A DNA stretch of 35,834 bases from positions 1 to 35,834 of the forward strand of contig JAUXFG010000023.1 in NCBI GenBank assembly GCA_030620115.1. The letters are read 5' to 3'. Both the position numbers and the translations under genes were made by a program. The stretch is from Candidatus Fermentibacterota bacterium (GTDB lineage Bacteria > JAFGKV01). The notes beneath the pieces were generated by a model. It was not told where the DNA came from. It worked only from the letters and a program-made list of their open reading frames with translations, and did not search any database. Shown here one piece after another: positions 1 to 26,407 of the stretch. Position 1 is the stretch's first letter, and each line of letters starts with the position of its first letter.

Positions 1-1176
1 CCTGATATAGCGTGTCAGCAACCGGTCGCTACGTTCGAGCATGTGATCGAAGTCCTTCTTTCCTGCGACGTGTTTCTCAAGGAACGCTATTGAGTACCGT
101 CGGATAACCTCGAACTGCTCCTCGGTACCGCTCAACAGCCTCGTCATGCGGTTGACCACGAAGCGATTGTTGAACGAAAAATGACTTGCTCCCCTGATTT
201 CCAGAAAGTACTTCGGAGGCGACAGGTTCGTGTGAATCTTGCACGCAATCTCCGACATCGTTTCGCTGCCGCGCAGTTGGTTTTTCTCCCGTTCACCCAT
301 GAACAGCATTGAGGGAATCCGCACAGCGGCAAGCTCAGCCTCCCTGAACAGATACCCCCCGGCTCCAGTCGAAAACAGCAACACGGCCTTGACGCGGGGA
401 TCATGCCGCTCCTTGATCGTCCCGCAAAGCCCAAGCGCCGTGTAGCCTCCGAAGGAATGCCCACCAACGGCAACGCGATTGCTGTCGATGACCTCTCGGA
501 AGTCTTCGGAGGCAGCCATGCGGTCTATCACGAGCCTCATCTCATCCAGACGGTAAAGGTATTCGTCGCGATCCTCGGGATCGGAAGCGGCGATCTCCTT
601 GGCGTGTCGCCAGAGGCCCCTCCGGTTGAAATCCTCCGATTGGCCGGCTCGTATGCGAACGGCGGAATGCCTGTCGTGATGATCGGGAGCGGCGACAATC
701 CAGCCGCGAGCTGCGAGCCGCTCGGTGAAGAAAACCGCGCCAAGTCCGCTGCCCCCATACCCGTGCGAGAAGACCAGCGTGGGGTAGGGTCCACTCTCAG
801 CCAAAGGGACGGCATCGATGGCGACCTGGCCGTTGGTCGGCCCCCCATAGTTGTGTGACCTCGGCTCTGCCGCTGTCGGATACCAGAGAGCCACGGTAAG
901 GGTCTCCTCCTGCTCGTCCTTTCGGTACTTAAGATCGATGACTCTGTAACCCACATTAAAGAGCGGCTGGGTCCGCCGTTCTTCTGCATCCGCGCCCATG
1001 CCATCGCAACTGAGGACCCCCAAGACGAGGAAAACGCTGAGCAATCGCCCTATCAACGGAGGAGTACGCACAAGATCCGGCGCCTCTGAACGCTCTCCTG
1101 ACGTGCCATTCTGCACCAGCAGAATGGGAAGAACTATCCAGCCTGAAACCTGCTGAATCCCCGCCTCTGCCCTCAT
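1..1176 (-). CDS. Alpha/beta hydrolase (dienelactone hydrolase / PAF-acetylhydrolase-like), C-terminus cut by window edge
   Basis: The frame is open from an ATG at 1176 to the window edge (392 residues visible). The ATG follows a GGGAGG Shine-Dalgarno by 8 bases. A serine nucleophile elbow GGHSFGG (Ser about 241) and a histidine in RGASHFSF (His about 332) fit the alpha/beta hydrolase fold; YPTLVFSHGYGGSG near residue 131 is the oxyanion-hole strand. The third triad residue is not obvious. Two hydrophobic stretches precede the enzyme: WIVLPILLV and then LLSVFLVLGVLSC, the latter shaped like a lipobox. An alternative GTG start at 1071 would give a standard lipoprotein signal, so an envelope location is likely. 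The substrate is unknown; an ester or lactone is inferred from the family. It lies just downstream of a degenerate attC-like stretch and may be the last cassette or the flanking chromosome. Confidence 0.75.
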   Translation of the reverse strand, partial: MRAEAGIQQVSGWIVLPILLVQNGTSGERSEAPDLVRTPPLIGRLLSVFLVLGVLSCDGMGADAEERRTQPLFNVGYRVIDLKYRKDEQEETLTVALWYPTAAEPRSHNYGGPTNGQVAIDAVPLAESGPYPTLVFSHGYGGSGLGAVFFTERLAARGWIVAAPDHHDRHSAVRIRAGQSEDFNRRGLWRHAKEIAASDPEDRDEYLYRLDEMRLVIDRMAASEDFREVIDSNRVAVGGHSFGGYTALGLCGTIKERHDPRVKAVLLFSTGAGGYLFREAELAAVRIPSMLFMGEREKNQLRGSETMSEIACKIHTNLSPPKYFLEIRGASHFSFNNRFVVNRMTRLLSGTEEQFEVIRRYSIAFLEKHVAGKKDFDHMLERSDRLLTRYIR

Positions 1177-1224
1177 ACATCGTCCCTCCCGAGGCCCATC
1201 GCCCCGGAACAATTCCCATTCAAT

Positions 1225-1312
1225 CCCCAAGCGCTTCAGCGGCTCAGTTCAATCCGCCAGCCGGCGGACAAGGCGCTCTCACGCCCTGCGAATCCTTACT
1301 TCGTTTTAGGCG
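1225..1312 (-). other. Degenerate attC-like site interrupted by a 16-bp palindrome
   Basis: Read on the minus strand, it begins with GCCTAAAAC, which holds the kinase stop codon, and ends with GAGCCGCTGAAGCGCTTGGG, which resembles the right arm of the attC sites further along. A dispersed palindrome TCCGCCAGCCGGCGGA (1253-1268) sits in the middle. Position and arm similarity suggest a decayed recombination site; the outer boxes are imperfect, so this is tentative. Confidence 0.35.
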
Positions 1313-1794
1313 ACTACCGCTTTGACTATCTCATCGGCAACTGCACTCGGCGTCTTCTTGCTTGTGTCGATCTTTACCGAATCGAGTGTCAGAGTTTGTC
1401 TGAGTCGCTGCAGAGCGAGCTCACTATTCGTGCTGCGTGAACCATCCAACGAGAGACGGGACAATAGAGTAGGCTCATCACAAATCAGCGTGAACATGAG
1501 GAATTGAACCAATTCATCGCAAAGGCCGCGCAGAAGTCTTTCTACGATCGACTTATCATGGAGTACCCAAGTAAAAAGGACGAACGAGAATCCAGTCTCC
1601 AGAAACGAACGTAACACACTGCGAATATTCTGTTCAACCATGTTCTTTGTCGTTTCGTTGACAAGAAATGGATGCATCCGCCAGAGATCGTCGCCATCTA
1701 ACCAGACGCATTTATCCAAACGAGCAAGAAGCTCCTTGGCAACAACCGATTTTCCGACCGCAGGTGCACCACCTATGAATACAAGCTTGGTCAT
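1306..1794 (-). CDS. P-loop kinase-like NTPase
   Basis: 162 residues opening with an N-terminal Walker A motif GGAPAVGKS (about residues 8-16) right after the first beta strand, then WLDGDDLW, a DGDD-type acceptor or magnesium site as in small-molecule and RNA-repair kinases. This indicates a cytoplasmic nucleoside-triphosphate-dependent kinase of the AAA_33/zeta-toxin-like or shikimate-kinase-like group; the phosphorylated substrate cannot be read from sequence. The ATG at 1794 directly follows a short attC-like dyad, and the stop lies in the next attC-like box, the usual layout of a gene cassette. No antitoxin partner is adjacent, so a toxin role is not supported. Confidence 0.7.
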   Translation of the reverse strand: MTKLVFIGGAPAVGKSVVAKELLARLDKCVWLDGDDLWRMHPFLVNETTKNMVEQNIRSVLRSFLETGFSFVLFTWVLHDKSIVERLLRGLCDELVQFLMFTLICDEPTLLSRLSLDGSRSTNSELALQRLRQTLTLDSVKIDTSKKTPSAVADEIVKAVVA

Positions 1795-1817
1795 ATTGTC
1801 CAGTATATCCTCACGTC

Positions 1818-1859
1818 ACCTAACATCGACCTCAGCCGCTTGAGCCAGCGCCGTTAGGC
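1818..1859 (-). other. Short attC-like recombination site
   Basis: The outer boxes ACCTAAC (1818-1824) and GTTAGGC (1853-1859) match the RYYYAAC/GTTRRRY integron consensus and are inverted to each other. The 28-base interior contains CTCA/TGAG arms around AGCGGC. At 42 bp it is shorter than typical attC sites, so it may be a deleted one. It lies between the DUF4177-like gene and the kinase gene. Confidence 0.5.
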
Positions 1860-1975
1860 GGCAGTGAAGGTCGGTTGGATGAAATGGTTACACATATATT
1901 GCTCTTTTCCACATAAAGGATGGGTTGGCGATACAAGACCTGTCAATCTTGCGACCTAAGTCTTCAATCTTGCTA

Positions 1976-2119
1976 TTATTGATTCCTTTTGGGGCGTCGA
2001 AAATACAACCACCATACCCAACAGGCACATAACTCCCATCCATCTTCACCCATCTCCTTCATGATTTCCATTTCATTCCAAACAAAAGCAACTCTGCGCC
2101 GATACTCCCATTGAGTCAT
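1976..2119 (-). CDS. Small DUF4177-like protein
   Basis: 47 residues from the ATG at 2119, chosen over the longer 70-codon frame because GAGGAGAAAGAG immediately precedes it. The sequence begins MTQWEYRRRV, has a GEDGWELC core and ends in YFRRPKR. This is the pattern of DUF4177 proteins (KWEYKVV ... L..LG.EGWEL ... YYFKR). Their function is not known; I recall such short proteins as common cassette passengers. The charged, tryptophan-rich chain has no signal peptide and should be a small cytosolic fold. About 115 bases without a gene separate it from the next attC-like box. Confidence 0.65.
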   Translation of the reverse strand: MTQWEYRRRVAFVWNEMEIMKEMGEDGWELCACWVWWLYFRRPKRNQ

Positions 2120-2157
2120 CTCTCTTTCTCCTCTCTGATTCTTGAAATTTCTCCTGC

Positions 2158-2220
2158 GTCTATCGCCCAGCTTCCGCGGCGGTCGCAAGGCGGCCGGCAG
2201 TCTGCATGCTGTAGTTAGGC
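2158..2220 (-). other. attC-like site carrying the stop codon of the HsdR remnant
   Basis: On the plus strand GTCTATC (2158-2164, one base off consensus) and GTTAGGC (2214-2220) bound a GC-rich dyad with CAGC/GCTG and CCGCGGCGG/GGCGGCCGG arms. The TAA of the HsdR remnant (2217-2215) is the TAA inside GCCTAAC as read on the minus strand. The same stop-in-box arrangement occurs at the clear attC at 11016-11083. Confidence 0.5.
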
Positions 2221-3174
2221 CTCCTGCCTTCTATACGTAAGGCCGAACACAGTATCTGTCACCCAGCGCTTGAAGCCTTCATTGTCCATGAACTGCTTGA
2301 ACAGCTCGGTATCATCCTTCATCACCGACGTCATCACGCGAACCAGCGCCTTGTCGTGCTCGATTCGGGCATTCTGCTCGTCGGAGTTCTTCTGGGCGTT
2401 CTCGATGAACCGCCGCAGGTTGCCCGCACCGTCGTTCCAGCCCAGGTTGAATGGCAGGAACCACGACGCCTTGCCCTTCAGATGCGTGCAGAATTTCACC
2501 TGATGATCGTCCACTGCGAAGTGCACCACGCAGCGGCCGAACTCGAAGAGCTTCTCCCGCGGGTTGCGGTCCTTCTTGTACTGCCAAACCGCGTCCTCCA
2601 CCGTCTGTTTGGTGAGGCTGTTCTTCAGCTCGAAGGTTGCCACTGGTAGGCCGTTGATGAAAAGGCCCATATCAAGTGCGAGCCGTGTCTCATCGCGGCT
2701 GTAGCGCAGTTGCCGGGTGACCGAGAAGCGGTTAGCCTCGTAAAGCGTCTTCGCCTTCTCGTTGCCCGGCGACGGTGTGCCGTAGAAGAAGTCGAGATCG
2801 TGCGCCCCATGCTTGAGACCGTGGCGCAGCACGTCGATGCTCCCGCGTTTGTTGATCTCGCCTTGTAAGCGCGCCAGGAACTTGCGCCGCGTCGGGCCGT
2901 CTTCACCCAGCGCCAGCGCCTCGGCCACCTCCGGCTGTGTTTCGGTCAGAAAGGCTGAGAGCTGGGCCAGGTCAACGCAGTACTCGCGATCATAGTCGTT
3001 CGGGTTGCCACCGATCCAGCCTTCGCCTCCATAAGCGACGGGTGGATCAGCCACCATGCCTGGTTTTGGTGGGTCGCCCACTTTTGCCAAGGCTTCGGTG
3101 GGCAGGCAGGGGTGGCCGGTTAGCACTGTACATATGAGCCGTTCGAGGCCGCGTTCGGAGGTGTCGCTGGTCAT
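2215..3174 (-). CDS. Truncated type I restriction subunit R: N-terminal nuclease domain joined to an HsdR-like tail, helicase missing
   Basis: 319 residues from the ATG at 3174 (MTSDTSERGLE, the usual HsdR beginning); a TTG 45 bases upstream is less convincing. Residues 1 to about 235 match the HSDR_N nuclease domain: HDLDFFYGTPSPG, TRQLRYS, LDMGLFINGLPVATFELKN (PD-(D/E)XK core with FELK) and HFAVDDHQVKFCTHLKGK. After KASWFLPFNLGWNDGAGN a full HsdR continues into about 700 residues of helicase. Here it passes directly to RRFIENAQKNSDEQNARIEHD and ends FKRWVTDTVFGLTY, which I judge to be a C-terminal HsdR tail. No Walker A or DEAD-box motif is present. The frame is intact, so a stand-alone nuclease cannot be excluded; alone it would lack DNA translocation. 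The 240-base gap upstream holds a TTTGCTAAA/TTTAGCAAA dyad. Confidence 0.75.
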   Translation of the reverse strand: MTSDTSERGLERLICTVLTGHPCLPTEALAKVGDPPKPGMVADPPVAYGGEGWIGGNPNDYDREYCVDLAQLSAFLTETQPEVAEALALGEDGPTRRKFLARLQGEINKRGSIDVLRHGLKHGAHDLDFFYGTPSPGNEKAKTLYEANRFSVTRQLRYSRDETRLALDMGLFINGLPVATFELKNSLTKQTVEDAVWQYKKDRNPREKLFEFGRCVVHFAVDDHQVKFCTHLKGKASWFLPFNLGWNDGAGNLRRFIENAQKNSDEQNARIEHDKALVRVMTSVMKDDTELFKQFMDNEGFKRWVTDTVFGLTYRRQEA

Positions 3175-3414
3175 AATATGAGTTTCTTTCGCTGGGGAAC
3201 GACCATGGCCATCAAACAACCATCAAGTAACGCTCTCATGTACGCTCCACTCAAGCCTCCGGCGCCGCTCACGATGGCATTTGTTTGCTAAATCCTTTGC
3301 TATAAGGCCGGCATCCACCACGGTTTAGCAAAGGGCTAACGCCTTCTCCAACAAGGAGTTGCGGCGACTTCTTCGCGATTCTCGTTTGTTCTCGTGACCG
3401 ATTTCTTTGCTCAA

Positions 3415-5082
3415 TCACGGCGCCTCCGACAAGAACCACTCGGGATGTGACCGTGTGCCTCGGTTGACGATGCTGCCAGAACGGCGGAGTTCCTGCAGTA
3501 GGTTATGAACCTTATGCCGCTTCTGCTCGGGGGTGAGGCGGTCGGGCAGCTTTGATATGAGCGCGTCGTCCACGTTGCTCCGGCTTACCGGCCCATGCTC
3601 CTGTACCAGCGCCAGGATTAGGTCCAAGTAGTATTGCTTGTCGAAGCCGCGCTCGCGGATGTGTCGGCCCGTCTCGCCGGTCGCCCTAGCGACCGAACCC
3701 GCCACTATCAGGTTCGGATAGCGGCCCTCGACCAGGCCGACGGTCTTGAGGCGGCGGTGCTCGTCCCGACCGATTCGCTGACTCTTCTGCACCCTGTCGA
3801 GCAGCATCACCTGCGCGAGGTCAAGATCGGTCCGCTCCATCAGAAGGCGTGTGTAACGCTCGTCGAGGATCCGTCCGCTGATGCTCACCGCGACGCGCCT
3901 CGGCTCGGTCAGGTCGTAGTCTGGAAGGGGGAACGAACGCCGACGCTGCGTTTCGAACATGCGCTTGATCCCACCGCCCTGGGTGTCGGTCAAGTTCAGT
4001 TCGACCATCGCATCGGCCAGGAACGGGTTGCGGTATATGGCCTGCGGAGCATCCTGCCGGATCACCGTCTCGACATCGCCCGGAAGAAAGTCGCCGACAT
4101 TGGTCAGGAGTACCCGGTCGGGAAACTCGACCACGACGACGCGTCCGCACAGACCATAGTCCTGGTGTGCGATGCAGTTGTGCAGCGCCTCGCGGATCAC
4201 CCAAGGGTCGTACTGCGTAATCTCCTGGGGAAACAGCGTGCCGCTCGGCAGAGCACGCACCATCAGGTTGCGGATGCGCTTCTGCAGGCGGTCGCCCGCG
4301 AGCAGGAAGGGCGGACCGAAATGCTCGTAGTCCAGCTCGCGGTTGTCCTCGTCCTTCAGCACCCACGAGATCTTGGCCACCGCAGACGAGAGCAGCGTGG
4401 CGGACTCGGCGCGGCCGAGCAGGAGGAGCGAGGTGTGCGTCACCGCTCCTTGCTTCAGAACCCTGGCCTTGTTGAGGAAGGTGACGTCGTCCCACCCGGC
4501 CACATCGTCGGCCTGGCCCGGATGTTTGACGATGAACTGCTCCCGCGCTTTCGCCACGGCTTCTGGATCGAGGTCGGCCAACGAGGCGGACTCGCACACC
4601 TCCCCAGACCAGTCTCGTCCTCGCGTCCAAAGCGCCCTCGCCTTCTCGGGGTGTTTGCTCAACTCGGTCTTGCTTGAGCCAACACGGACGAACGCCGTGC
4701 CATAGAAGCTGATCGGCTGATCCCGAGCCGGACCGACCTCGAAGAAGACGACGCGACCATCGGGATGTTCAACAATGTGAGTCTCGAAGCCCGTGTTCGG
4801 GCGCAACCCCGCCGCGAGCCAGGGCAGCAGATCCTGGTTGCCCTTGGCCTTGACGGTGTAGGGATCGAATCGCGTGCCGACGACTTCGTGCGTTGCGTTG
4901 TCGATGCCGAACACCAGATAACCACGCGGTTGACCCCGCAGACAGGCTTCATTGGCAAGCGCGGACAGGTACTCTCCGAGAAGCTGGGGCTCGTGGTGGT
5001 TACGCTTGAACTCGAACCACTCCGTCTCTGTCGGCAGAGCGCGCAGGCGATCAATAAGCGCGATGTGCCCACTCTCGGTCAT
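3415..5082 (-). CDS. AlbA_2 (Schlafen-type) domain protein with HATPase_c_4-like ATP-binding domain
   Basis: 555 residues. The N-terminus shows the AlbA_2 hallmark TETEWFEFKRN (residues 18-28) and GYLVFGIDN. The middle shows the ATP-binding signature of COG2865 proteins: EALHNCIAHQDY (298-309) and DTQGGGIKRMFE (366-377). The C-terminal 100 residues look like winged-helix segments (LILALVQEHGPVSRSNVDDAL). Such proteins are frequent but poorly characterised accessories of type I restriction loci, thought to bind nucleic acid or regulate. The ATG overlaps the hsdS stop as ATGA, so translation is coupled. All motifs are intact. It lies between hsdS and the HsdR remnant, the common order in such loci. 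Confidence 0.85.
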   Translation of the reverse strand: MTESGHIALIDRLRALPTETEWFEFKRNHHEPQLLGEYLSALANEACLRGQPRGYLVFGIDNATHEVVGTRFDPYTVKAKGNQDLLPWLAAGLRPNTGFETHIVEHPDGRVVFFEVGPARDQPISFYGTAFVRVGSSKTELSKHPEKARALWTRGRDWSGEVCESASLADLDPEAVAKAREQFIVKHPGQADDVAGWDDVTFLNKARVLKQGAVTHTSLLLLGRAESATLLSSAVAKISWVLKDEDNRELDYEHFGPPFLLAGDRLQKRIRNLMVRALPSGTLFPQEITQYDPWVIREALHNCIAHQDYGLCGRVVVVEFPDRVLLTNVGDFLPGDVETVIRQDAPQAIYRNPFLADAMVELNLTDTQGGGIKRMFETQRRRSFPLPDYDLTEPRRVAVSISGRILDERYTRLLMERTDLDLAQVMLLDRVQKSQRIGRDEHRRLKTVGLVEGRYPNLIVAGSVARATGETGRHIRERGFDKQYYLDLILALVQEHGPVSRSNVDDALISKLPDRLTPEQKRHKVHNLLQELRRSGSIVNRGTRSHPEWFLSEAP

Positions 5083-6638
5083 GCCTCCATCTCCTTGGCA
5101 ACCCTGTCGAGATTGTCCGCCATGGCGTCACCGTCGTCCATGAGGTCATCGGTTTCGTCGGGCGGTTCTGGCTCGCCTGCCTGTGCGCCCGCCTGCGCGC
5201 CGCGCGTGGGCAGGTCGCACGCAGACAGGTCGGGTTCTTCGGGCAGATTGGCTACCGCCGCGCTCACGTCGAGTTTGCCGGTGACCACATCGGCAATCAG
5301 GCGGGTGCGGTATTCATGGAGGAGTTCGATTTCTGCCTGGACCCGCTTCACCCCGTCACTGATATTCTTCACCGCATCTTGGATTGCCTCGACGATCTTG
5401 TTCTGCTCTTCCAATGGCGGCGATAAGACTCTCCATGACCGAATGTGACGCTGGGCGATTTTCGGCATTGTTGCGCTTGATCCGCGCGCGTCTCGCTCGA
5501 TTTGCCTTCGGCCCAGTGGACTAAGCAGCTGGTACATCAAGAAGCTGCTGCAAAATAGCGTTGGTTTAGGTGTCAGTCGGTAGATCAAGTCGCAAATCAC
5601 TGTCTTCGGTCTAGCCCCCTGCACAATGCAGACATCACCAACGAGCTCGCGAGTATTCGACCGAGTCAACAGAAGATCCCCGTTCTTGATGTCAATGCCA
5701 TCGGGGACCTTTGTGAAGACCGGTATGGGTTTGATTGCCGTCGAGTCGAATACCCCTCGCTTCACGGATGACAAAGTAAGCACTGACCACTGATCCTGCG
5801 AAATCTCCCCTTCAGCCGCGACAGGACTCCACCCCTGGTCGATACGCCGCAGACAACGGCCGAGGAGCAGTTCCTCCCAATGCTCCGGAACGTCGCCGAG
5901 CCACTCGACACCGGAGGGCTTCATCAAGTGTGAAGGGCGAGGTGTGAGGTGTGAATACTCCTGACCATCTTCACCCTCTTCACCCTTCACCCTTCTCACT
6001 TCAAACTTCCCGATCACCAGACCGGAAATGATGGCCTGCTTCTGCTCCTCCAGCAGTCCGATCAGCTTCTGCTTGGCGCGGATGTAACGCCGGATCCGCG
6101 AGTCGATGTGATCGAGGAAGCGGACGATGGCGGTTTGTTCGGGGAGGGGGGGGAGGGGGAACGGTGCACAAAGAAACGAATCGTCCGTCAATTGAAGTCT
6201 GGAAGTCCAAACGCCTTTTGAGCGAACGCGAAGCTCCCAGTGGAAAGGAGTTGACCTGACAAGTTCATGAATGAACCTCGCATCGACGATTTCCTTCGGC
6301 CGATACACGCCGTACGCGGTGCTAATGATGCCGTGATACCTCGAGACTCCCAGACCCCGAGCCCAAGCCCACAGGCTATTGATAACGAGATCGCCCGGCC
6401 AACATAGCTTGTGCCCAACGTACGACTCAGCTTTGAACATCGTCACATTGGCAGAACGACGAGGCACAACTCCACGTTCTGAAGAGACCGTGAGAAGTTC
6501 TTCCTCTCCAGTTTCCGATCGAACGTCGATGCAGCGAAAGAGGTTTTTTCCTCGCCGCACCTCCCAATGCTCCGGAACCTCCCCTAACCACTCGACGCCG
6601 GAGTCCTTGTAGGTAGGGTATGGTTGCAGGTCCATCAT
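5079..6638 (-). CDS. hsdS: Type I restriction-modification specificity subunit S
   Basis: About 519 residues from ATG 6638, which overlaps the stop of the DUF1016 gene as ATGA; the frame stays open further upstream but without family similarity. Two target-recognition halves each open with the typical S-subunit phrase (SGVEWLGEVPEHWE near residue 12, SGVEWLGDVPEHWE near 245). Each is followed by a conserved helix region (PLPPLPEQTAIVRFLDHID; SPPLEEQNKIVEAI). HsdS sets the bipartite DNA target of the methylase/restriction complex. The central linker (about residues 213-238) is encoded by GTGAAGGGTGAAGAG-like simple repeats, which probably lengthened the spacer in frame. No HsdM partner is present in the window, so this subunit has no local methylase. 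Confidence 0.9.
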   Translation of the reverse strand: MMDLQPYPTYKDSGVEWLGEVPEHWEVRRGKNLFRCIDVRSETGEEELLTVSSERGVVPRRSANVTMFKAESYVGHKLCWPGDLVINSLWAWARGLGVSRYHGIISTAYGVYRPKEIVDARFIHELVRSTPFHWELRVRSKGVWTSRLQLTDDSFLCAPFPLPPLPEQTAIVRFLDHIDSRIRRYIRAKQKLIGLLEEQKQAIISGLVIGKFEVRRVKGEEGEDGQEYSHLTPRPSHLMKPSGVEWLGDVPEHWEELLLGRCLRRIDQGWSPVAAEGEISQDQWSVLTLSSVKRGVFDSTAIKPIPVFTKVPDGIDIKNGDLLLTRSNTRELVGDVCIVQGARPKTVICDLIYRLTPKPTLFCSSFLMYQLLSPLGRRQIERDARGSSATMPKIAQRHIRSWRVLSPPLEEQNKIVEAIQDAVKNISDGVKRVQAEIELLHEYRTRLIADVVTGKLDVSAAVANLPEEPDLSACDLPTRGAQAGAQAGEPEPPDETDDLMDDGDAMADNLDRVAKEMEA

Positions 6639-7708
6639 TCCGGCCCTCGGTTTTCCAGTCGTTTGCGGGACAACGCGATCGCGGTGTGGAGTTTTTGCTG
6701 CAAGACTTCTTTTGGAGGCAAGGCCGTGAGGTATTCGGCCACATGGATGCCTGACTTGTCCAGTTCCAGCAACTCGATCTGTTCCTGTTTCTTGCCGGCA
6801 CAAAGGATGATACCCAACGGCGCTTCCTCCTCCGACCGGCGCTCATTCTTATCCAGCCAGCGCAGGTAGAGTTCCATCCGGCCTTTGTATTCCGCCTTGA
6901 AGTCGCCCAGTTTTAGCTCGATGACGATCAGGCGCCTGAGTGGCCGGTGAAAGAAGAGCAGATCGATATAGAAATCGTCGTTATCAATCTGGATGCGTTT
7001 CTGACGGGCAAGGAAGGCGAACCCGCTTCCCAGTTCCAACAGAAAGTTCTCCATTTCACGCAGTATGGCGTCTTCGAGGTCTTTCTCCAGGTATCGGTCA
7101 TTCAGTCCCAGGAAGTCGAGAAAATAGGGGTCTCTGAAAACCAGGTCCGGCGTCATCCGGTCGGACTCGCGCAACTGCTCCAGTTCATACCGTGCTGTCT
7201 CATCGGGTTTTCTGGACAAGGCGGTGCGCTCATAAAGCATGGAGTCGATCTTCTTACGCAAAGTCCGCACGCTCCAACGCTCGACACGGCACATTTCGGT
7301 GTAGAAGTCGCGCTGAAGAGGTTTGTCCAGCGGAAGGAGTTCCCGGAAATGGGACCAACTCAATGTTTGCGACAGCGTGGCAATAATCGGTTCTTCCGGG
7401 AAGGCTTCGGCAAAGCGGACCATGCGGGTCAATGTCGAGTAACTGAAGCCACGACCATAGTCGCGGGTCAATTCTTGCGACAGCGTGGCAAGAATCTCTT
7501 TGCCGTATTCTGCTCGATCATGTCCGAGGATTTCTTCGTTTATCCGCTTACCGATGCGCCAATAGAGTATGGTCAAACCGGCATTGACGGTGGCCGCTAC
7601 GGCCGCTCGCGTTTCCTCGATCATGCCGCGGATATCGGCGAAGAGCTCAGGAACGCCGGGCTTCCGGAGGTTGTCCCGTGTGATCGGTCTGTTATCATCC
7701 CCACTCAT
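6635..7708 (-). CDS. DUF1016 (YhcG-type) PD-(D/E)XK nuclease-domain protein
   Basis: 357 residues, matching DUF1016 proteins over their usual length. The helical N-terminal half carries ILYWRIGKRINEE, GFSYSTLTRMVRFAEAFP and SWSHFRELLPL. The C-terminal PD-(D/E)XK core has DDFYIDLLFFH followed by RLIVIELKLGDF, then YKGRMELYLRWLD. The family is common in type I restriction loci, but its function is unresolved. The ATG at 7708 overlaps the end of the GxxExxY remnant as ATGA, and its stop overlaps hsdS, so the block is one translationally coupled transcript. Catalytic residues look intact. Confidence 0.88.
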   Translation of the reverse strand: MSGDDNRPITRDNLRKPGVPELFADIRGMIEETRAAVAATVNAGLTILYWRIGKRINEEILGHDRAEYGKEILATLSQELTRDYGRGFSYSTLTRMVRFAEAFPEEPIIATLSQTLSWSHFRELLPLDKPLQRDFYTEMCRVERWSVRTLRKKIDSMLYERTALSRKPDETARYELEQLRESDRMTPDLVFRDPYFLDFLGLNDRYLEKDLEDAILREMENFLLELGSGFAFLARQKRIQIDNDDFYIDLLFFHRPLRRLIVIELKLGDFKAEYKGRMELYLRWLDKNERRSEEEAPLGIILCAGKKQEQIELLELDKSGIHVAEYLTALPPKEVLQQKLHTAIALSRKRLENRGPE

Positions 7709-7878
7709 AGTAAGCCTCTTTCTTCCTGATTCACGCGAAGGCGCGAAGACGCGAAATCCTGATGGTTATTCACTACCCGTCTGATGCCCCCCTTGAAGAT
7801 CGCCGCACCGAAGTTGATGAGCAATCCGACAGGCAGGTTCAGGAGGCGCAAGTAGGTCAGCCAACCGTTCACAACATG
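7706..7878 (-). pseudogene. C-terminal remnant of a GxxExxY (PDDEXK_3) protein
   Basis: The minus-strand frame reads LTYLRLLNLPVGLLINFG, then AAIFKGGIRRVVNN, which is the conserved C-terminal end of GxxExxY proteins (about 120-130 residues when complete). It is extended by a tail encoded by the common CGCGAAGGCGCGAAGACGCG repeat. The nuclease core is missing. It is in the same frame as the GIY-YIG gene and separated from it only by that gene's TAG (7881-7879), so a deletion or recombination joined the two. Confidence 0.75.
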
Positions 7879-8466
7879 CTACGTCAAGAGCCGATCTGGT
7901 AGACCGAGAAGCGGCACGGGAGCACTGATCACGCATCCTATGGGTTCCTCGTCATCCCTTCGCGGGTGGTAGCGAATCCCTTGCTCCTGGAAAGTGCCTA
8001 CGATGTCCGGCGCAGCATATAGGACATCCGCGATTGCGGCCTCTATGCGGCGACGAGTTCGGCGCTCGCATGAAAGAGGCGCGAGGAAGAACCGGAGCGT
8101 GAACGTGAGTTCGCCTATCTGCTCGCACAGCTGCGAGTAATTCGCGATGCACTCTCTTGCAGACTTGCGATCCGAAGCGTCGTAGCGCCCCGGCCACAAG
8201 ACGACCTTCTCTCCGCAGGCGAACTCCGCTGGCGAGTAGACGTGATACATCGCAGCGGCATGCTCCGTGTAGTGCTCAAGCAGCCTAGTGCTGAACCTGC
8301 GCCCGGTTTCGCCAACGTAGTAGATGAGGTAGCCGTCATGCTGCGACACGGTCCAGAGGTAGATGCCCGCCAATCGTCCCTCCTCAACGTCGAAGACGGA
8401 TGGCGCATCCGGTGTGCCCGGCCAAGAGAACGGACCAGTGAACGAGACGATCACTTCATCTGACAT
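7879..8466 (-). CDS. GIY-YIG nuclease-superfamily protein
   Basis: 195 residues. The motif AGIYLWTV ... YYVGETGRRFSTRLLEHY (about residues 31-68) corresponds to the GIY...YVG signature with the following arginine of GIY-YIG endonucleases. The remainder (FACGEKVVLWPGRYD, a helical middle, and a C-terminal RYHPRRDDEEP) has no domain I recognise. The catalytic glutamate normally later in the fold cannot be assigned with certainty. The ATG at 8466 has AAGAAGAGG upstream and lies 20 bases past an attC-like box, the start of a cassette. The 3' end runs directly into a GxxExxY remnant rather than an attC, so the cassette's own recombination site seems lost. Confidence 0.7.
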   Translation of the reverse strand: MSDEVIVSFTGPFSWPGTPDAPSVFDVEEGRLAGIYLWTVSQHDGYLIYYVGETGRRFSTRLLEHYTEHAAAMYHVYSPAEFACGEKVVLWPGRYDASDRKSARECIANYSQLCEQIGELTFTLRFFLAPLSCERRTRRRIEAAIADVLYAAPDIVGTFQEQGIRYHPRRDDEEPIGCVISAPVPLLGLPDRLLT

Positions 8467-8485
8467 CTACGCCTCTTCTTGGGTT

Positions 8486-8545
8486 GGCAAACGCTAGGGC
8501 TCAACGGCGCGGCTTGTCCGCGTCCGCTGGAGCGCATCGTTCGGA
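8486..8545 (-). other. attC-like recombination site after the Nudix gene
   Basis: 60 bp bounded by GGCAAAC (8486-8492) and GTTCGGA (8539-8545). Inner arms pair GGCGCGG with CCGCGTCC and include the CCGCTGGAGCGC block also seen in the sites at 9811 and 12585. The last residues of the Nudix protein (NDALQRTRTSRAVEP) are translated from this site, which I recall as a typical sign of reading into an attC. Confidence 0.65.
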
Positions 8546-8973
8546 GCTTTCAGTCTTTCATTCAGCTCCCAGAGTGCATTTCGATTGCTGTCCCACTTAA
8601 GCAAACTGCAAGCCTGTTCGTATGTTACCCATTGGAATTCGATATGCTCTTGTGACAGGGAAACATCACTGTTGCCAGCATCAACAGCGAAGCAGTACTC
8701 AGGGATGACATATACATCGTCACCCCAGGAATCGGCAGCGGCAAAACAGTCCTTTGGCACCGTCGTCAGGGAATCGAGCTGGATGAATTCACCTGCGATA
8801 CCGACTTCTTCCTGTGTTTCACGTTGGGCTGCTTGGATAGGGGTCTCGCCATCTTCTCCACCACCGGCAACAAACTGCCAGTAGCCGGCATCACCACGCT
8901 TAAGCACCGCAAACTCCAATCCTGCCGCCGTGCGACGGAAAAGTATTACCAAGATTTGGAATGGCGCCCTCAT
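8494..8973 (-). CDS. Nudix hydrolase
   Basis: 159 residues with a complete Nudix box at 37-59 (G-x5-E-x7-RETQEEVGI), the magnesium-binding helix that hydrolyses nucleoside diphosphates linked to another group. FQILVILFRR and YWQFVAGGGE resemble dATP/dihydroneopterin-triphosphate pyrophosphohydrolases (NudB-like), but the exact substrate is not determined. The ATG at 8973 is preceded by GGAGC at a suitable distance, just after a partial attC-like site. The final 15 residues derive from the downstream attC and are unlikely to be part of the fold. It is the best-preserved enzyme in the array. Confidence 0.88.
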   Translation of the reverse strand: MRAPFQILVILFRRTAAGLEFAVLKRGDAGYWQFVAGGGEDGETPIQAAQRETQEEVGIAGEFIQLDSLTTVPKDCFAAADSWGDDVYVIPEYCFAVDAGNSDVSLSQEHIEFQWVTYEQACSLLKWDSNRNALWELNERLKAPNDALQRTRTSRAVEP

Positions 8974-8983
8974 TGCATCTTGC

Positions 8984-9021
8984 TCCGAACGTAAGAGTTA
9001 ACCGGCGAGTGAACGCTTAGC
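8984..9021 (-). other. Partial attC-like site after the nuclease pseudogene
   Basis: On the minus strand GCTAAGC (9021-9015) begins shortly after the pseudogene stop, and the site ends with CGCCGGTTAACTC then GTTCGGA (8990-8984), typical of a right half-site. Only about 38 bp remain and the left inner arm is short, suggesting a deleted attC. Confidence 0.45.
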
Positions 9022-9023
9022 AT

Positions 9024-9785
9024 TTACTCGTCCGATTCAACGACTTGTTCGATGCCTCTCGATTTCTTCACCGCTTCGATAATCTCAGCCACCCGTGTAA
9101 GAGCCTCTGTTGCAACGTCTTGGTAGTCGGAAAAGGGCCTGTTCCACGGGTCATCAATCTGAGCAACCTCGACCGCGATAGCAACTGACTTACCAGCAGG
9201 CACTACTTCTGCCCCAGTATGGAGGTGGGGCGAATATGTCTCTTTGAGTTCCTCGAAATGAGGCGCATCGCCGGAAAAGAACAACTTCACAAAGCCTGCG
9301 GTAGTCTGATGTGCGATGTACGAGTTCTTCGGGAGACAGTCTGGGCGAAAGGCGACCCATGTGCTCTGGGAAGGTCTAAGCCTCGGGCAATCCATCCCGA
9401 GATCCGGAAAATGCTCAGCGCAAAACTCGTAGTAGTCCTCTGCGAACTTGGTGAGCCCTGGATCTACCTTCGGCTGATAGCCTCGGCGATTCTGCTCAAT
9501 CCCCTCCTGCACGACCAGAGCTTTGTGCGCGAAACGACTGTCGATTGTGCGTCGGGAAAGGAAGAAGGCCATGATTTCCTCGTAGGAAATCTCTGCGTCA
9601 TTCTGACTCTCCAAGATTCGGGTCACTTACGGAATGCCAAGCACCAATGCGGTCCTTGTATGTAGGTTGTCCATATACCCGGAGGCAAGCCACTCCCTGA
9701 ATTGCACGGATGCCTCAAGCTCCTCTACGAGCAACATGTCGATATCACGTTCTGTCACAGATTGCAGACACTTGAGACCAAGCAT
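9024..9785 (-). pseudogene. PD-(D/E)XK nuclease-superfamily protein with the catalytic segment deleted
   Basis: Two frames belong to one family. The upstream frame (about 9785-9627) reads SVTERDIDMLLVEELEASVQ, then FREWLAS, and, after a shift, GAWHSVSDPNLGESE. The downstream frame (9626-9024, 200 residues) begins near NDAEISYEEIMAFFLS and continues EGIEQNRRGYQPKVDPGLT, TWVAFRPDCLP and PAGKSVAIAVEV to the usual end. In intact relatives the GESD strand is followed by a valine-rich strand and the IENK catalytic motif, about 60-80 residues, before the SYEEI helix; here that block is absent at about 9605-9630. A stand-alone product from the GTG at 9626 would lack the active site. Confidence 0.7.
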
Positions 9786-9810
9786 TGGAACCCGCTTTCT
9801 ATGCATCGAA

Positions 9811-9867
9811 TGCCCTGCCGATCAGCGGCTATGCGAAGCGCTGTCCGCCTGGAGCGCCTTGCTAGCC
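9811..9867 (-). other. Degenerate attC-like site
   Basis: Minus-strand reading: GGCTAGC, AAGGCGCTCC, then AGGCGGACAGCGC, CGCTGATC and GGCAGGGCA. The interior matches the arms of the sites at 12585-12643 and 11881-11940 (AGCGG...GTCCGC). The outer boxes have drifted (GGCTAGC for GCCTAAC). The frameshifted restriction-like gene ends inside it. Confidence 0.5.
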
Positions 9868-10471
9868 AGTCCCCTCTGTATCTTGCCAGCTTCTTCAATG
9901 GCCTGTTTGAGTCCGGAGAAGTCCACCGATTCTCCGGTTAGTCTTCGCAGCGACCGCAGTGTGATCGAGTGCTGGCTTCGTTTCCGGTGTCGAGTGATAT
10001 CGTCGGTACGACAAAGAACTCCCATTGAGAGAGGTCAAGGGGATCAAGGGTTTTCTGATCGGTATGTGCGAGCAGCGCAAACACGTACACGTCCGCCTGC
10101 CGCTGTGTGTCCTCGCTCTGCCGGTTTGTGTCCTTGTCCCATGCGCGAGTCTTTGGCACGCGAAAAACGATTTGCGAGAGTCGGTCCTGATGCCAGCTCT
10201 GGATGTAGGCTGCGGACTTGATCTCAATGCGTGTGCCATCAGGTGTCTTTAGGTCGTAAGCAGCCCACTCCTCGCGGACGCTATCTTCCGCAACTCCGAG
10301 GGCTTGAGTAACAAGGTACTCCGCAAGCACCCCCCGTGTCGCATTGCTTACGAGATCCGACGAACTCCACTTCCAAAAACTCAACACATCGAAGTCCAGC
10401 ACGCGGTCCGCATTGTGGAACGACTCGTCTCCTTCGCGTCGCCTCGGCTCAATCGGTCCGAGTTCGCTCAT
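9822..10471 (-). pseudogene. Restriction-endonuclease-like protein, frameshifted near its 3' end
   Basis: From ATG 10471 (GGAG seven bases upstream) the frame encodes an uncharacterised family with a PD-(D/E)XK-like core: RGVLAEYLVTQALG, EEWAAYDLKTPDGTRIEIKS (D and E-x-K), then RQADVYVFALLAH and SQWEFFVVPTISLD. At about 9960-9975 it loses register and soon stops (9938). The expected C-terminus (SITLRSLRRL, FSGLKQAIEEAGKIQRG) continues in the next frame to 9822, inside an attC-like site. A one-base indel, genuine or a sequencing error, explains this. The core residues are intact, so the shortened protein could keep some fold. The start overlaps the upstream gene by 23 bases, so both belong to one cassette. 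Confidence 0.7.
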
Positions 10472-10997
10472 CTGGTTCTCCGGTGGCGTCCTGTGACTGG
10501 CTAACATTCAACTGGGCCCACGTGGTTTCCTGAAGCTGCGCTTTGGCGAACGTGAACAGCCTGCGTTTCGGATTGTCTATGTCGTTCACGAATCGTTCGC
10601 AGAGCGTCAGTTGCGCAGTCAGGCGGTCGCTCTCCGGCAGAAAAGTGAGATCGTAAATCGGGCGTCCTATGAACTCTGGAAGGCGGTCGCTGATGTCCTT
10701 GGCGTCGTGGAACTGGGCCACGATGGCCCTGTTGAACGGCTCCCTTGGCCAGTTGTAGTTGAAATGATGGATGACGAGTTCGACGCGATAGGAATACTCC
10801 TCCCCCCACATGAAGATCGCGTTGAGTTCCTCTTCAGGGCCGGAGAACGCTGGCCGATCTTCCCAGGAGTTGTGAGTTCGAAATGTGATGCCGCTTGTGA
10901 CTCTGGCGGTCTTGATGAATCCGTCATGGAAGGCGCCGAAGTACTCAGAAACCCTCTTGGCTTCCTGTTCTGACGTAATCACGAGGGGTCCCATAGT
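10449..10997 (-). CDS. Hypothetical cassette protein, 182 residues
   Basis: Start chosen at ATG 10997, five bases after GGAGA. A 15-codon upstream extension would begin inside the attC and is unlikely. The protein (MGPLVITSEQEAKRVSEYFG ...) is rich in aromatic and acidic residues, with beta-strand-like segments such as YSYRVELVIHHFNYNW and a terminal charged tail. It lacks signal peptide, membrane segments and any motif I recognise. Immunity-type and other small accessory proteins can look like this, but I cannot assign a function. It overlaps the restriction-endonuclease-like gene by 23 bases and is translationally coupled to it, so the two may act together; that is inference from layout only. 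Confidence 0.6.
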   Translation of the reverse strand, partial: TMGPLVITSEQEAKRVSEYFGAFHDGFIKTARVTSGITFRTHNSWEDRPAFSGPEEELNAIFMWGEEYSYRVELVIHHFNYNWPREPFNRAIVAQFHDAKDISDRLPEFIGRPIYDLTFLPESDRLTAQLTLCERFVNDIDNPKRRLFTFAKAQLQETTWAQLNVSQSQDATGEPDERTRTD

Positions 10998-11015
10998 TTC
11001 TCCAAGGCGGAAGGG

Positions 11016-11083
11016 GCCTAACCACGGATTAGAACCGAGCACTCGCTTCGCGACACTCGGGTCTAATCCTTATCTTGTTAGGC
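11016..11083 (-). other. attC recombination site, best-conserved in the window
   Basis: 68 bp with perfect outer boxes GCCTAAC (11016-11022) and GTTAGGC (11077-11083), extended by GGGG/CCCC outside. Inner arms GGATTAGA-CCGAG and CTCGGGTCTAATCC pair with one bulge around a CTCGCTTCGCGAC loop. This is the R''-L''-L'-R' architecture of integron attC sites, folding as a single-stranded hairpin. On the minus strand the first box contains the stop codon of the nucleotidyltransferase gene, and the next gene starts about 20 bases beyond the second box. Confidence 0.88.
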
Positions 11084-11533
11084 GCCCCCTGTGTCTTGTG
11101 ACAACTCTAGCAGGCGAACGTCTTCGAGGTCGACGTCAGGGCCAGCAGCCCGCTTGGATGCGATCAAGTCCTTCTTGGACAAGATGAAGAACTCCTGCTC
11201 GTGATAGATTACGGTCTTCTTGCGTGACCAAGCGTCCCGAAAGCGCAAACCGGGAGTGGCGGTTTGAACATCGATACGAACACGATCCTTGAAGATCGTA
11301 ATCTCGTTGGCGAGCAAGTCTTCAACAGTCGTCAACGTTGCTGTCCCAAGTCCGGCGTCGAGCAACCCATCGAGAAGGCGTTTCGCATTTTCTGGAGTAG
11401 CTTCAATCAGGATGTCGAGATCGAAGGTGGCGCGCGGCACACCGTGAAGGATTGCAGCAATGCCGCCGATGACGACATATTTCACGTCATGTTGCTGAAA
11501 GGACCTGAATACATCCTGCAACCGATTCAGCAT
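11078..11533 (-). CDS. Nucleotidyltransferase-fold protein (AbiEii/MNT-like)
   Basis: 151 residues. KYVVIGGIAAILHG followed by ATFDLDILI gives the GG ... D-x-D nucleotidyltransferase signature (Gly 23-24, Asp 38 and 40). It is a compact pol-beta-superfamily protein of the type found in toxin-antitoxin-like pairs (AbiEii, MNT/HEPN). The third catalytic acidic residue is probably in DRVRIDVQTA. It overlaps the upstream 68-residue ORF by 47 bases in another frame. The stop lies in the attC box, so this is the terminal gene of a three-ORF cassette. Whether it acts as toxin, antitoxin or housekeeping enzyme cannot be decided here. Confidence 0.82.
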   Translation of the reverse strand: MLNRLQDVFRSFQQHDVKYVVIGGIAAILHGVPRATFDLDILIEATPENAKRLLDGLLDAGLGTATLTTVEDLLANEITIFKDRVRIDVQTATPGLRFRDAWSRKKTVIYHEQEFFILSKKDLIASKRAAGPDVDLEDVRLLELSQDTGGA

Positions 11534-11693
11534 GCTTCTGCTCCTGTAGGCCGGGGTTTACGGTTAGCGCCAGATCGGTGAAGAAGGACAATAGATCCAT
11601 GCGTTCCGAAAGCGATAGAGAACAGAACCAGCGGGTTTTGGCCTCGATGGTCTCCTCGGCACGATCGTGTGTAATCGACCCGTGTGTTTTCAT
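11487..11693 (-). CDS. Small partner protein of the nucleotidyltransferase
   Basis: 68 residues: MKTHGSITHDRAEETIEAKTR, then WFCSLSLSERMDLLSFFTDL, helical, acidic/basic mixed, without signal. I recognise this as a short ORF often found directly upstream of, and overlapping, nucleotidyltransferase genes; the pair behaves as a conserved two-gene unit with no assigned role. The ATG shares ATGA with the stop of the 41-residue ORF upstream, and its 3' end overlaps the nucleotidyltransferase by 47 bases, so the three are translationally coupled. Confidence 0.75.
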   Translation of the reverse strand: MKTHGSITHDRAEETIEAKTRWFCSLSLSERMDLLSFFTDLALTVNPGLQEQKHAESVAGCIQVLSAT

Positions 11694-11815
11694 GTCAACA
11701 GTATATCAGACAGACACTGTTTCTTCAATGCAGAACGGTACATGTGACCATCAAACTGATAGGGCGCAAAACGCGGAATCAGTTGTACGTCTCGATTTGC
11801 TTGTTCGAAAGCCAT
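11690..11815 (-). CDS. 41-residue ORF opening the nucleotidyltransferase cassette
   Basis: Below usual ORF cut-offs as a separate gene, but the ATG at 11815 is preceded by a strong GGAGGAGAATCT. Its stop overlaps the next ATG as ATGA, and it begins 65 bases after an attC-like site. The product (MAFEQANRDVQLIPRFAPYQ ... SDILLT) has no motif I know. It could be a regulatory leader peptide that couples translation, or a genuine small protein. The evidence is positional plus the ribosome-binding site. Confidence 0.55.
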   Translation of the reverse strand: MAFEQANRDVQLIPRFAPYQFDGHMYRSALKKQCLSDILLT

Positions 11816-11880
11816 AGATTCTCCTCCAATTCTCTGACGGAATACAAAATAACCGACTGGATCCAAAATGTTGTCTGACT

Positions 11881-11940
11881 TTCGAACACCGGACATCAGC
11901 GGCGGTGCTTGGCGCCGTCCGCTGCGGTTCCTTGTTGAAC
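11881..11940 (-). other. attC-like recombination site
   Basis: 60 bp from TTCGAAC (11881-11887) to GTTGAAC (11934-11940). Interior CATCAGCGGCGGTGC and GCGCCGTCCGCTGCGG pair around TTGG. It aligns well with the site at 12585-12643 (shared AACAC, AGCGG, CGCCGTCCGCT, CCTTGTT). The left box is one base off consensus. Confidence 0.6.
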
Positions 11941-12018
11941 TGAGCCGCTGCGCGGCAGGTTTTTCATGGGCCGCATCTTCTCGCACGGTTTGGAGATTCT
12001 CCAAGCGGCTTCTCTGGT

Positions 12019-12127
12019 GCTAGCCCGAAGGACAGATGGGGCGGCAAGTGCATCGCCGACGGCCGAAAGCCGGTTATTTGCAATGCACTCGCCGCGAATT
12101 GGGATCCACTTCACCGAGTCGTTAGGC
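12019..12127 (-). other. Long attC-like dyad after the 121-residue ORF
   Basis: GTTAGGC at 12121-12127 is a perfect outer box. Facing it, 12041-12056 and 12080-12095 form a 14/16-bp inverted repeat (GCGGCAAGTGCATCGC against GCAATGCACTCGCCGC) enclosing a nested CGGCCGAAAGCCGG. The far box (GCTAGCC near 12019) is poor. Long attC sites of 100-140 bp are known (for example VCR-like), so this is plausible but not certain. The 79-codon minus-strand frame across it is judged non-coding. Confidence 0.45.
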
Positions 12128-12133
12128 CACAAC

Positions 12134-12499
12134 TCACTCTATATCAACCAAATCCAGAAGCTCTGAAAACACACGATCTTTCGACCTGTTCCCGAGAGAT
12201 CGTGTTGTATAGTCTGGCTGATCGCCACTGCGATTTGTGCGTCCATTCACCAATTCTACGAGTTCTCTCTTGTTCCATCTTGTTTTGATGCACAACGGAG
12301 TGATCACGTCACCCTCACGGTAGTAGTGGAATCCTCCCCATGTTGCGTCAATCAGATCCGACCACTTCGGTCCGCCATCAGGAGTTCGCAGACTTTTGAC
12401 TAGTCGTTCAAATGCCTCAGGATGTCGCAATCCAAACACCGTCCCATGGAATCCGAGGATCACAGGGAAGACCGGTGCTCTGATTAGGAACATAGTCAT
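12134..12499 (-). CDS. Hypothetical cassette protein, 121 residues
   Basis: ATG 12499 is chosen because AGGAG lies nine bases upstream; the GTG two codons earlier is too close to it. The sequence includes FGLRHPEAFERLVKSLRTPD, then WSDLIDATWGGFHYYREGDV and the basic stretch TRWNKRELVELVNG. It ends in a helical LLDLVDIE. I recognise no family. It looks like a single soluble domain without signal or membrane segment. It sits between the attC-like sites at 12585-12643 and 12019-12127, as a cassette gene should. Confidence 0.55.
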   Translation of the reverse strand: MTMFLIRAPVFPVILGFHGTVFGLRHPEAFERLVKSLRTPDGGPKWSDLIDATWGGFHYYREGDVITPLCIKTRWNKRELVELVNGRTNRSGDQPDYTTRSLGNRSKDRVFSELLDLVDIE

Positions 12500-12584
12500 A
12501 CGCACATACTCCTGATCCGGAAAACCGGAATAGTCATGGCCCCACTTCCAAGCGCTTCACAGACAGGTGAATCGGTCTTGGACG

Positions 12585-12643
12585 GCCCAACACTGAAGCT
12601 GAGCGGTGGCGTTTACGCCGTCCGCTCCAGCGCCTTGTTCGGC
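12585..12643 (-). other. attC recombination site, upstream-most of the array
   Basis: 59 bp with GCCCAAC (12585-12591) and GTTCGGC (12637-12643). Inner arms CTGAAGCTGAGCGGTGGCG and CGCCGTCCGCTCCAGCG pair around TTTA. Box sequence, length and stem layout match the common GCCCAAC/GTTNGGC class of attC. It marks the upstream limit of recognisable cassettes on this strand. Confidence 0.75.
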
Positions 12644-12866
12644 GTCTCTGTACCTCAGAAATCGACTCGAACACAAAAAATGGTGAACGGCACGTCTAAT
12701 CAGGTCAGAGCGCTGCGGAAAATCCGCATTACTGCACTAGGCAAGATCTGACGCTTCGGAACGAGGACCTGGAACCGATACTTGATCTTGAGACTGTACC
12801 GTTCACCAGTGATACGGTACGAGTATCTTCAGCGTTTGTCAATGATACCGATGATCGAGGAATGCA
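12644..12866. other. Gene-free stretch upstream of the array
   Basis: No convincing gene. A minus-strand frame (about 12820-12720) encodes YSLKIKYRFQVLVPKRQ ... SALT with no start codon, possibly a decayed small protein. The stretch also holds the promoter/operator-like dyad described separately. Confidence 0.4.
12796..12842 (-). promoter_or_regulatory. Promoter-like TTGACA with overlapping operator-type palindrome
   Basis: On the minus strand TTGACA (12842-12837) is followed after 17 bases by TACCGT (12819-12814, half matching the -10 consensus). A near-perfect palindrome, GTACCGT (12796-12802) and ACGGTAC (12814-12820) with inner TCAC/GTGA arms, overlaps the -10. It points into the cassette array from its upstream edge, so it could drive the array under a repressor. 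Weak -10; tentative. Confidence 0.35.
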
Positions 12867-13171
12867 TAGCCCTGCATTTCTCACCGGCTTTCGTCGTGAA
12901 TCGGTGCAGTCGGTTGTGGCTGGCCCGCACCCAACGCTTTGGGTGCGGGACGACCGAGGCTCCCGGCTCTGTCAGGGCGTAGCCTGTCTCCCGGCTTTGT
13001 ATAACAACGCCGTGGCAAGCCGCCGTCGCGACTTGTCTCGGTGAAGCTCGAAGAATTGAGACGGAGGCCCGAAGGCGTATCCTCTGTCCGCCAGCCGGCG
13101 GACAGCAGGCAGGGCCGTATCCGCGGTTGCAGTCCCGCGTCGGACGCGGGATTGGTGAGAAGCTCGGGTTA
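12867..13171. repeat. TIR element copy A (305 bp)
   Basis: Starts TAGCCCTGCATTTCTCACC and ends GGTGAGAAGCTCGGGTTA, imperfect inverted termini shared with copies B, C and D. Inside are a perfect 10-bp-stem hairpin CCCGCACCCA/TGGGTGCGGG (12924-12949), the shared AAGGCGTATCCTCTG block, and a TCCGCCAGCCGGCGGA palindrome (13087-13102) placed exactly after CTCTG, where copy D continues CGATAC. No ORF. Confidence 0.65.
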
Positions 13172-13393
13172 AATACGAATCTGAAATGGCCGAGCAGATA
13201 TGTCAGAATGCTTCAAGACTGGGGACTGAGATCCCCCGCTTCTTGCGATGGGTCCGATGGGCACGGCATGCCATGCCCCTACGATAGTCAGCCGAATCTG
13301 ATGTAGATCCGATCTCTAGAACTGCCAGCCTTCTCTTACGCAAGCTCTTGACATGTAGCGGGTGACCTCGCCATCCCATCACTATCCCACATC
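13172..13393. other. Gene-free stretch with a GGGCACGGCATGCC palindrome
   Basis: No gene seen. Contains GGGGACTGAGATCCCCC and, near 13259-13279, the dispersed palindrome GGGCACGGCATGCCATGCCC, a form common in intergenic spacers of environmental genomes. Confidence 0.5.
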
Positions 13394-13618
13394 TAGCCCG
13401 CATTTCTCACCAGCTTTCTGCTGGAGCGTTGTATTTGACCGCGCCTGCTGCGTTACGCTCCTTTGGACTCCTCGACGTATCGCAGGGGATACGCCTTCGG
13501 GCTTCGTCACGGCGGAGCCAGGCCACGCCCTGACAGAGCCGGGGTCCTCGGTCGCAAGCCTTGCAGCCACAGCCAACTACACCGCTTCGCGACGAAAGCT
13601 GATGAGAAGTGCGGGCTA
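13394..13618. repeat. TIR element copy B (225 bp)
   Basis: Bounded by TAGCCCGCATTTCTCACCAG and its near-exact inverse CTGATGAGAAGTGCGGGCTA. Carries the family core CGTATCGCAGGGGATACG (13476-13493), itself a hairpin, and GGTCCTCGGTCGCAAGCCT shared with copy C. Non-coding; the plus- and minus-strand frames across it are artefacts. Confidence 0.75.
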
Positions 13619-13647
13619 GCATCGTTGCGCCCAATCGGGCCCAATCG

Positions 13648-13683
13648 AATAGTCTAGTAAATCTATGGATTTACTAGACTATT
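13648..13683. repeat. Perfect 16-bp-stem AT-rich hairpin
   Basis: Arms 13648-13663 (AATAGTCTAGTAAATC) and 13668-13683 are exact inverse complements around the loop TATG. AT-rich against a GC-rich background. There is no T-run after it, so it is not a classical terminator. It lies 180 bases upstream of the NIF3-like gene. Confidence 0.8.
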
Positions 13684-26403: not shown

Positions 26404-26407
26404 GGAA

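Follow-up and report, generated by a model that had tools for sequence, protein, structure and literature searches.

What kind of element is a series of short, unrelated genes that all lie on one strand and alternate with attC-like dyads, when no integrase is found beside it? The question is raised by contig JAUXFG010000023.1 of a Candidatus Fermentibacterota bacterium (assembly GCA_030620115.1). The entire contig (C184; 35,834 nt) constitutes the window analyzed here, and the draft genome to which it belongs (G000) comprises 4.1 Mb in 296 contigs and is 98% complete. A preliminary description had interpreted positions 1225 to 12643 as an integron-type cassette array without an integrase. The bottom strand of an attC site folds into an imperfect hairpin, the IntI tyrosine recombinase cuts next to the G/TT in the R' box, and cassettes are swapped as single-stranded hairpins. 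Judging from sequence comparisons, we consider that positions 8486 to 12643 very probably represent a CALIN (clustered attC sites lacking an integron integrase); one further attC, at 1818-1859, lies outside this cluster. The idea of an integrase-less cassette array is thus supported: more than one site was found, the sites lie on the gene strand, and the contig carries no integron integrase.

The attC sites were scored with two covariance models. Two queries, plasmid R388 IntI1 and the IntI piece of this genome, served to retrieve eighty integron loci, mostly from Proteobacteria, from public genomes. The first model, R1, was designed to avoid circularity: it was built from aligned attC sites upstream of intI in the fetched loci, taken from other genomes only and trained solely on sites adjoining intact intI genes, and the window was searched with filters off. 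The second model, R2, also includes sites from this genome's other contigs and from the sister genus, whereas the window contributed no site; its best score in this genome's contigs outside the arrays was 14.5 bits. Genome-wide, the top three R1 matches are the 12585, 8984, and 8490 sites of the window, and weak R1 matches fall on 1818-1859, 11016-11083, and the core of 11881-11940. The attC architecture (R''/R' boxes, L''/L' stem, bottom-strand hairpin) is matched by R1 over the full length of two sites and nearly the full length of one. The R2 matches in the window descend from 53.3 to 14.8 bits (Table 1), below which lies noise, and no match above noise occurs in 2220-8488. Every supported site has its best score on the minus strand, which is also the gene strand, in agreement with the arrangement described earlier. 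When the bottom strand was folded as DNA and compared with shuffles (200 for 11016-11083; given as z), 11016, 11881, 12585, and 8984 folded better than shuffles; apart from these and 8486 (Table 1), the remainder were not significant. A home-made score of boxes, arms, and fold energy was dropped as the main test, since it did not separate long chance hairpins (shuffles gave 3.6 matches at a threshold passed by 7); its top site was 11016-11083, and no shuffle attained 32. Rfam scans of the window at the gathering threshold and of 1-14000 at an E value of ≤1 yielded nothing useful.

Both models therefore returned more than the single 11016 site, which the preliminary description had ranked best. 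All six of the dyads listed there exist, and five of them (12585, 11881, 11016, 9811, and 8486) are above chance, but 2158-2220 is not. Two further sites, 8984-9053 and 1818-1859, had been missed. The left border proposed at 1225 has no model match, and 1225-1290 was accordingly rejected as an attC; 12062-12127, by eye a long attC, was rejected as well (R2, 9.6 bits; fold z, +0.46). The six attC sites in 8486-12643 are 0.4 to 1.2 kb apart, within the 4-kb rule (PMC9668308), so that the strict CALIN spans 8486-12643 and 1818-1859 counts as a separate single site, apparently an attC without its central stem. The model score of 11016-11083 alone is not above background.

Read leftwards from the attI side (right), the order is attC 12585, orfC, attC 11881, the DUF6036 gene, attC 11016, orfA and orfB, attC 9805, the PD-(D/E)XK-like gene, attC 8984, the Nudix gene, attC 8486, a 195-amino-acid (aa) open reading frame (ORF), a restriction block, attC 1818, and a P-loop kinase gene. 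The outermost site, on the attI side, has no gene of ≥60 aa to its right before an inverted-repeat element. It had been claimed that stop codons lie in the first attC box and starts shortly after the second. Stops do lie inside an attC for three genes, DUF6036 (11078, with the TAA within R'' GCCTAAC), Nudix (8494), and PD-(D/E)XK (9024), and in four cases the start follows the end of the preceding attC by 11 to 24 nt (8984 to 8973, 8486 to 8466, 11016 to 10994, and 1818 to 1794), the Nudix start being the closest at 11 nt. The description as short unrelated ORFs does not hold for 2215-7878, that segment being a multi-gene restriction-modification remnant. Plasmid searches with the cassette proteins gave distant homologues only, none in an integron context.

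Table 1. Features of the cassette region and its borders on contig C184 (z, bottom-strand fold against shuffles)
Feature	Position	Strand	Details
Inverted-repeat element	12862-13690	.	829 nt; full copy; starts 218 nt past array; attI-side boundary, not part of integron
attC	12585-12643	-	R1 38.3 bits, E 1e-8; R2 53.3 bits; R'' GCCGAAC, R' GTTGGGC; z -2.55
orfC, cassette ORF	12134-12505	-	123 aa; no Pfam/NCBIfam match
attC	11881-11940	-	Divergent boxes R'' GTTCAAC, R' GTTCGAA; strong core stem; R2 17.7 bits for core 11897-11925; z -2.66
Cassette ORF, DUF6036 nucleotidyltransferase-like	11078-11533	-	PF19502, 1.3e-8
attC	11016-11083	-	Perfect boxes GCCTAAC/GTTAGGC; unusual stem; R1 14.9 bits; R2 14.8 bits; z -6.97, 0/200 shuffles fold as well
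orfA, cassette ORF	10449-10994	-	~181 aa from ATG at 10994; no family; no plasmid homologue
orfB, cassette ORF	9938-10507	-	189 aa; no family; overlaps orfA (two-gene cassette)
Degenerate attC	9805-9867	-	Core kept, boxes eroded; R2 17.0 bits
Cassette ORF, PD-(D/E)XK nuclease-like	9024-9626	-	37% identity over 74% to Vibrio protein annotated PD-(D/E)XK nuclease
attC	8984-9053	-	R1 33.3 bits, E 2.6e-7; R2 38.5 bits; z -2.07
Cassette ORF, Nudix hydrolase	8494-8973	-	PF00293, 1.4e-15
attC	8486-8545	-	R1 29.3 bits, E 3.3e-6 (match 8490-8541); R2 39.1 bits; z -1.91
ORF	7879-8466	-	195 aa; start 20 nt past attC 8486; no own attC found
Type I restriction-modification remnant	2215-7878	-	GxxExxY C-terminal piece, YhcG/DUF1016, HsdS, SLFN/AlbA-like, HsdR; Pfam/PADLOC
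Candidate attC-like dyad	2158-2220	-	Directly after hsdR; R'' GCCTAAC contains stop codon; R2 8.6 bits, E 5; z +0.2
Short attC	1818-1859	-	Perfect boxes GCCTAAC/GTTAGGT; R2 16.7 bits (match 1818-1893)
ORF, small P-loop kinase	1306-1794	-	PF13238, 1.3e-11; start 24 nt past attC 1818

Are these dyads recombination sites, or could they be palindromes of another kind within an ordinary operon? A second array, on contig C187, has four sites (35016, 35760, 35984, and 36547, corresponding to 15016-16641 of locus L103), and its cassettes include a ParE toxin gene as well as a toxin-antitoxin pair of the RHH/PIN type. When the array sequence was compared with the whole genome at the DNA level, the sole other match to attC 11016 was a copy at C187:35984-36047 with 92% identity. 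In cassette orientation, this identity begins at the R'' box and ends at the GG/TT of R', which is the IntI cleavage point. Ahead of the shared site, the window has a DUF6036 gene and C187 a ParE toxin gene, and the two show no similarity. One attC behind two unrelated genes is the trace that integron recombination would be expected to leave by joining attC sites to different genes, and the shared attC, with identity ending at the crossover point, is the strongest added evidence for a CALIN. The core of attC 8486-8545 (32 nt) is also 97% identical to the C187 attC at 35016, and the 25-nt hairpin immediately before R'' of attC 11881-11940 recurs at the C187 attC at 35760. Lone attC sites occur elsewhere in the genome, on C241 and C17. 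Chromosomal integrons typically have similar attC sites within a taxon (PMC8352920), and few kinds of cassette content are commoner than toxin-antitoxin systems (PMC8618304).

It is therefore highly unlikely that the region is an ordinary operon or gene island whose dyads are terminators or palindromes of the REP (repetitive extragenic palindrome) or MITE (miniature inverted-repeat transposable element) type. The genome is indeed rich in palindromic repeats, one of which abuts the array, and an IS200-like (RAYT-type) transposase lies on the same contig at 18297-18923. However, the dyads match an attC model built from real integrons (R1), stop codons lie inside the sites, and the one other occurrence of 11016-11083 in the genome sits in another attC array and is bounded by attC boxes. 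Nor was the gene order seen as a conserved operon in the two relatives compared, G001 (sister genus) and G002: the only trace of the array DNA in these genomes is a 245-base, 67% match in the hsdS/yhcG block. Since G001 and G002 also lack counterparts of the flanking genes, this test is weak.

Some observations weigh against an integrase-less array covering the whole region. Four sites are divergent, and a strict cut-off would exclude them; the absence of attC from 2215-7878 means that 1225-12643 as a whole is not one uniform array; and the integrase may lie in an unassembled gap between the 296 contigs, its absence being proven for C184 only, whose left end is open. Where, then, is the integrase? 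As the preliminary description had stated, none lies in the window: a TIGR02249 search of C184 (35.8 kb) gave no integron integrase match, so there is no intI with attI next to the array. The genome's only true IntI sequence is a 63-residue C terminus at the extreme end of contig C125 (117.7 bits), which shows 73% identity to class 1 IntI1 across its length and has the integron integrase 2A3V as its best PDB match. The sister genus has attC sites scoring up to 52 bits, and its IntI remnants lie at most 1.4 kb from an attC. Contig C130 of G001 (L111, 106-261) encodes the tail of an IntI, cut at RHSFATHLL and followed ~1.3 kb later by an attC of 50.8 bits (R2). On contig C22 (L118, 1-163), an internal deletion has fused the first part of an IntI, RHYSPRTERSYGK, which was recognized by eye in a different frame, to the tail of the protein, ~0.5 kb before a weak attC.

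These pieces bear on the suggestion that the array belongs to a complete integron whose integrase is missing merely because the metagenome assembly is broken, which we regard as improbable. It is favored by the fact that C125 ends within the IntI gene, by the adjacency of IntI remnants and attC sites in the sister genome, and by the warning issued with IntegronFinder 2.0 that split contigs yield spurious CALINs (PMC9024848). Against it, the attI side is the right side, where C184 continues for 23 kb with a repeat and unrelated genes and without IntI; C125 has no attC match; and both sister-genome IntI pieces are deleted. Given the end piece on C125 and the deleted pieces in the sister genus, this host family thus repeatedly shows either decay of the integrase or breaks of the assembly at intI. 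Both sister-genus remnants are on the same strand as the nearby attC, so that intI would face the array, as in an inverted-integrase layout. An IntI-like piece in G002 was rejected as IntI because it reads as XerC-like. Contig C196 of our genome (L011, 6923-9641) carries a run of three tyrosine recombinase frames (415, 320, and 429 aa), all on the same strand, that is reminiscent of a recombinase-in-trio element.

How might such an array have formed? Three origins of CALINs are listed: loss of intI, off-target insertion, and rearrangement (PMC8618304). The unit of the array is one or two genes ending in an attC, and the plus strand, as the attC bottom strand, folds. Cassettes would have been assembled by IntI acting on the folded bottom strands, and the array may have been built by the IntI of this genome itself, of which a contig end or decay has left only a part. 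Without a local integrase, the array would now be static or movable only in trans. Its genes (nucleotidyltransferase, nucleases, Nudix hydrolase, and small kinase) may serve defense or other usual accessory roles. That an IntI elsewhere inserted cassettes off target, with no local integrase being lost, is possible but doubtful. Such an origin is consistent with the IntI piece elsewhere in the genome, with the two arrays on C184 and C187 and the lone sites, and with its place among the listed origins (PMC8618304), but arrays of six and four sites seem long for it, and their attI-side ends carry repeats rather than a simple secondary site.

The inverted-repeat element at the attI-side boundary of the CALIN belongs to a family with at least 136 matching pieces in the genome (40 of the 488 candidates scored). 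Against a density in the sampled contigs of approximately one cluster every 8 kb, a copy is also found 485 nt past the attI-side attC of C187 and another 103 nt after the stop codon of the C125 IntI piece. Their position at array edges and behind IntI is suggestive, but the pattern was noticed after the fact and the orientations differ. The 37-nt palindrome at 13647-13683, around CTAGTAAATC-TATG-GATTTACTAG, has an exact copy next to the C187 array and a similar one 0.4 kb past the C125 IntI piece. Contig C184 is likely the organism's own DNA, since it carries copies of this repeat family, which is scattered over many contigs, and shares attC sequences with C187.

Between the main cluster and the outlying attC, the restriction block at 2215-7878 is degenerate, comprises several genes without an internal attC, and interrupts or enlarges the array. 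Its gene order is close to yhcG-hsdS-hsdR on a Sphaerotilus plasmid. HsdR (2215-3219) is an in-frame fusion that matches residues 4 to 246 and then 918 to 999 of Meiothermus HsdR; the deletion of ~670 residues removed the whole helicase and retained the N and C termini. The hsdR stop codon lies inside the GCCTAAC of the candidate dyad at 2158-2220. Because the native C terminus of HsdR is kept and its stop falls within the R'' box of this dyad, the block could be read as one exceptionally large cassette of several genes, running from 8485 to 2158, that acquired its attC exactly at the operon end; we consider this unlikely, together with the accompanying conjecture that the inverted repeats at array edges are the agents that free arrays from their integrase.

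To the right of the repeat element, the contig has simple repeats of the type GATTCCGATACCGAT at 16500-16660, which C125 also has. The transposase at 18297-18923, an IS200-like Y1 enzyme of the RAYT type, has a weak Pfam match (21.5 bits, below the cut-off), and it is possible that it moves the genome's palindromic repeats. A long minus-strand cluster of glycosyltransferases and of radical SAM/B12-binding proteins (18904-34011) is probably devoted to surface polysaccharide or lipid synthesis.

How does this locus compare with known integrons? As in the CALIN elements defined by Cury in 2016 and by IntegronFinder (PMC9024848), at least two attC sites lie <4 kb apart, the genes occupy one strand, and the contig has no integrase; it differs in its sparsely sampled phylum and in the 5.7-kb attC-free restriction-modification remnant between the main cluster and the outlying attC. 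In sedentary chromosomal integrons, attC sites are typical of the taxon and toxin-antitoxin systems occur as cassettes (PMC8352920, PMC8618304); the features in common here are attC sequences that recur between arrays of one genome and the toxin-antitoxin cassettes of C187, but the arrays are small and dispersed over contigs and no intact IntI was found. Archaeal CALINs (PMC9668308) likewise come from metagenome-assembled genomes, mostly without IntI and with few attC sites per contig, whereas IntI remnants are present in this genome and in the sister genus. Arrays also outlast the loss of the integrase in Xanthomonas integrons with inactivated integrases (PMC8618304), but in the present case all that is left of the integrase is tails or a piece at the edge of a contig.

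Arrays of this kind are already well known, and the main novelty is the host, in a very sparsely sampled phylum: searches of the order and of the phylum returned three genomes each, all from one family (97,973 species covered). Integron cassettes and IntI remnants are now extended to this one family, and the second array and the sister genus make cassettes a property of the lineage rather than of a stray contig. The interest of the locus lies in that host lineage, in the one attC common to two arrays, in the uncharacterized cassette genes, several of them without any known family, and in the candidate restriction-block cassette. The repeats at array edges and a restriction block ending at an attC-like box offer a way into two questions, that of integrase loss from arrays and that of attC acquisition by genes.

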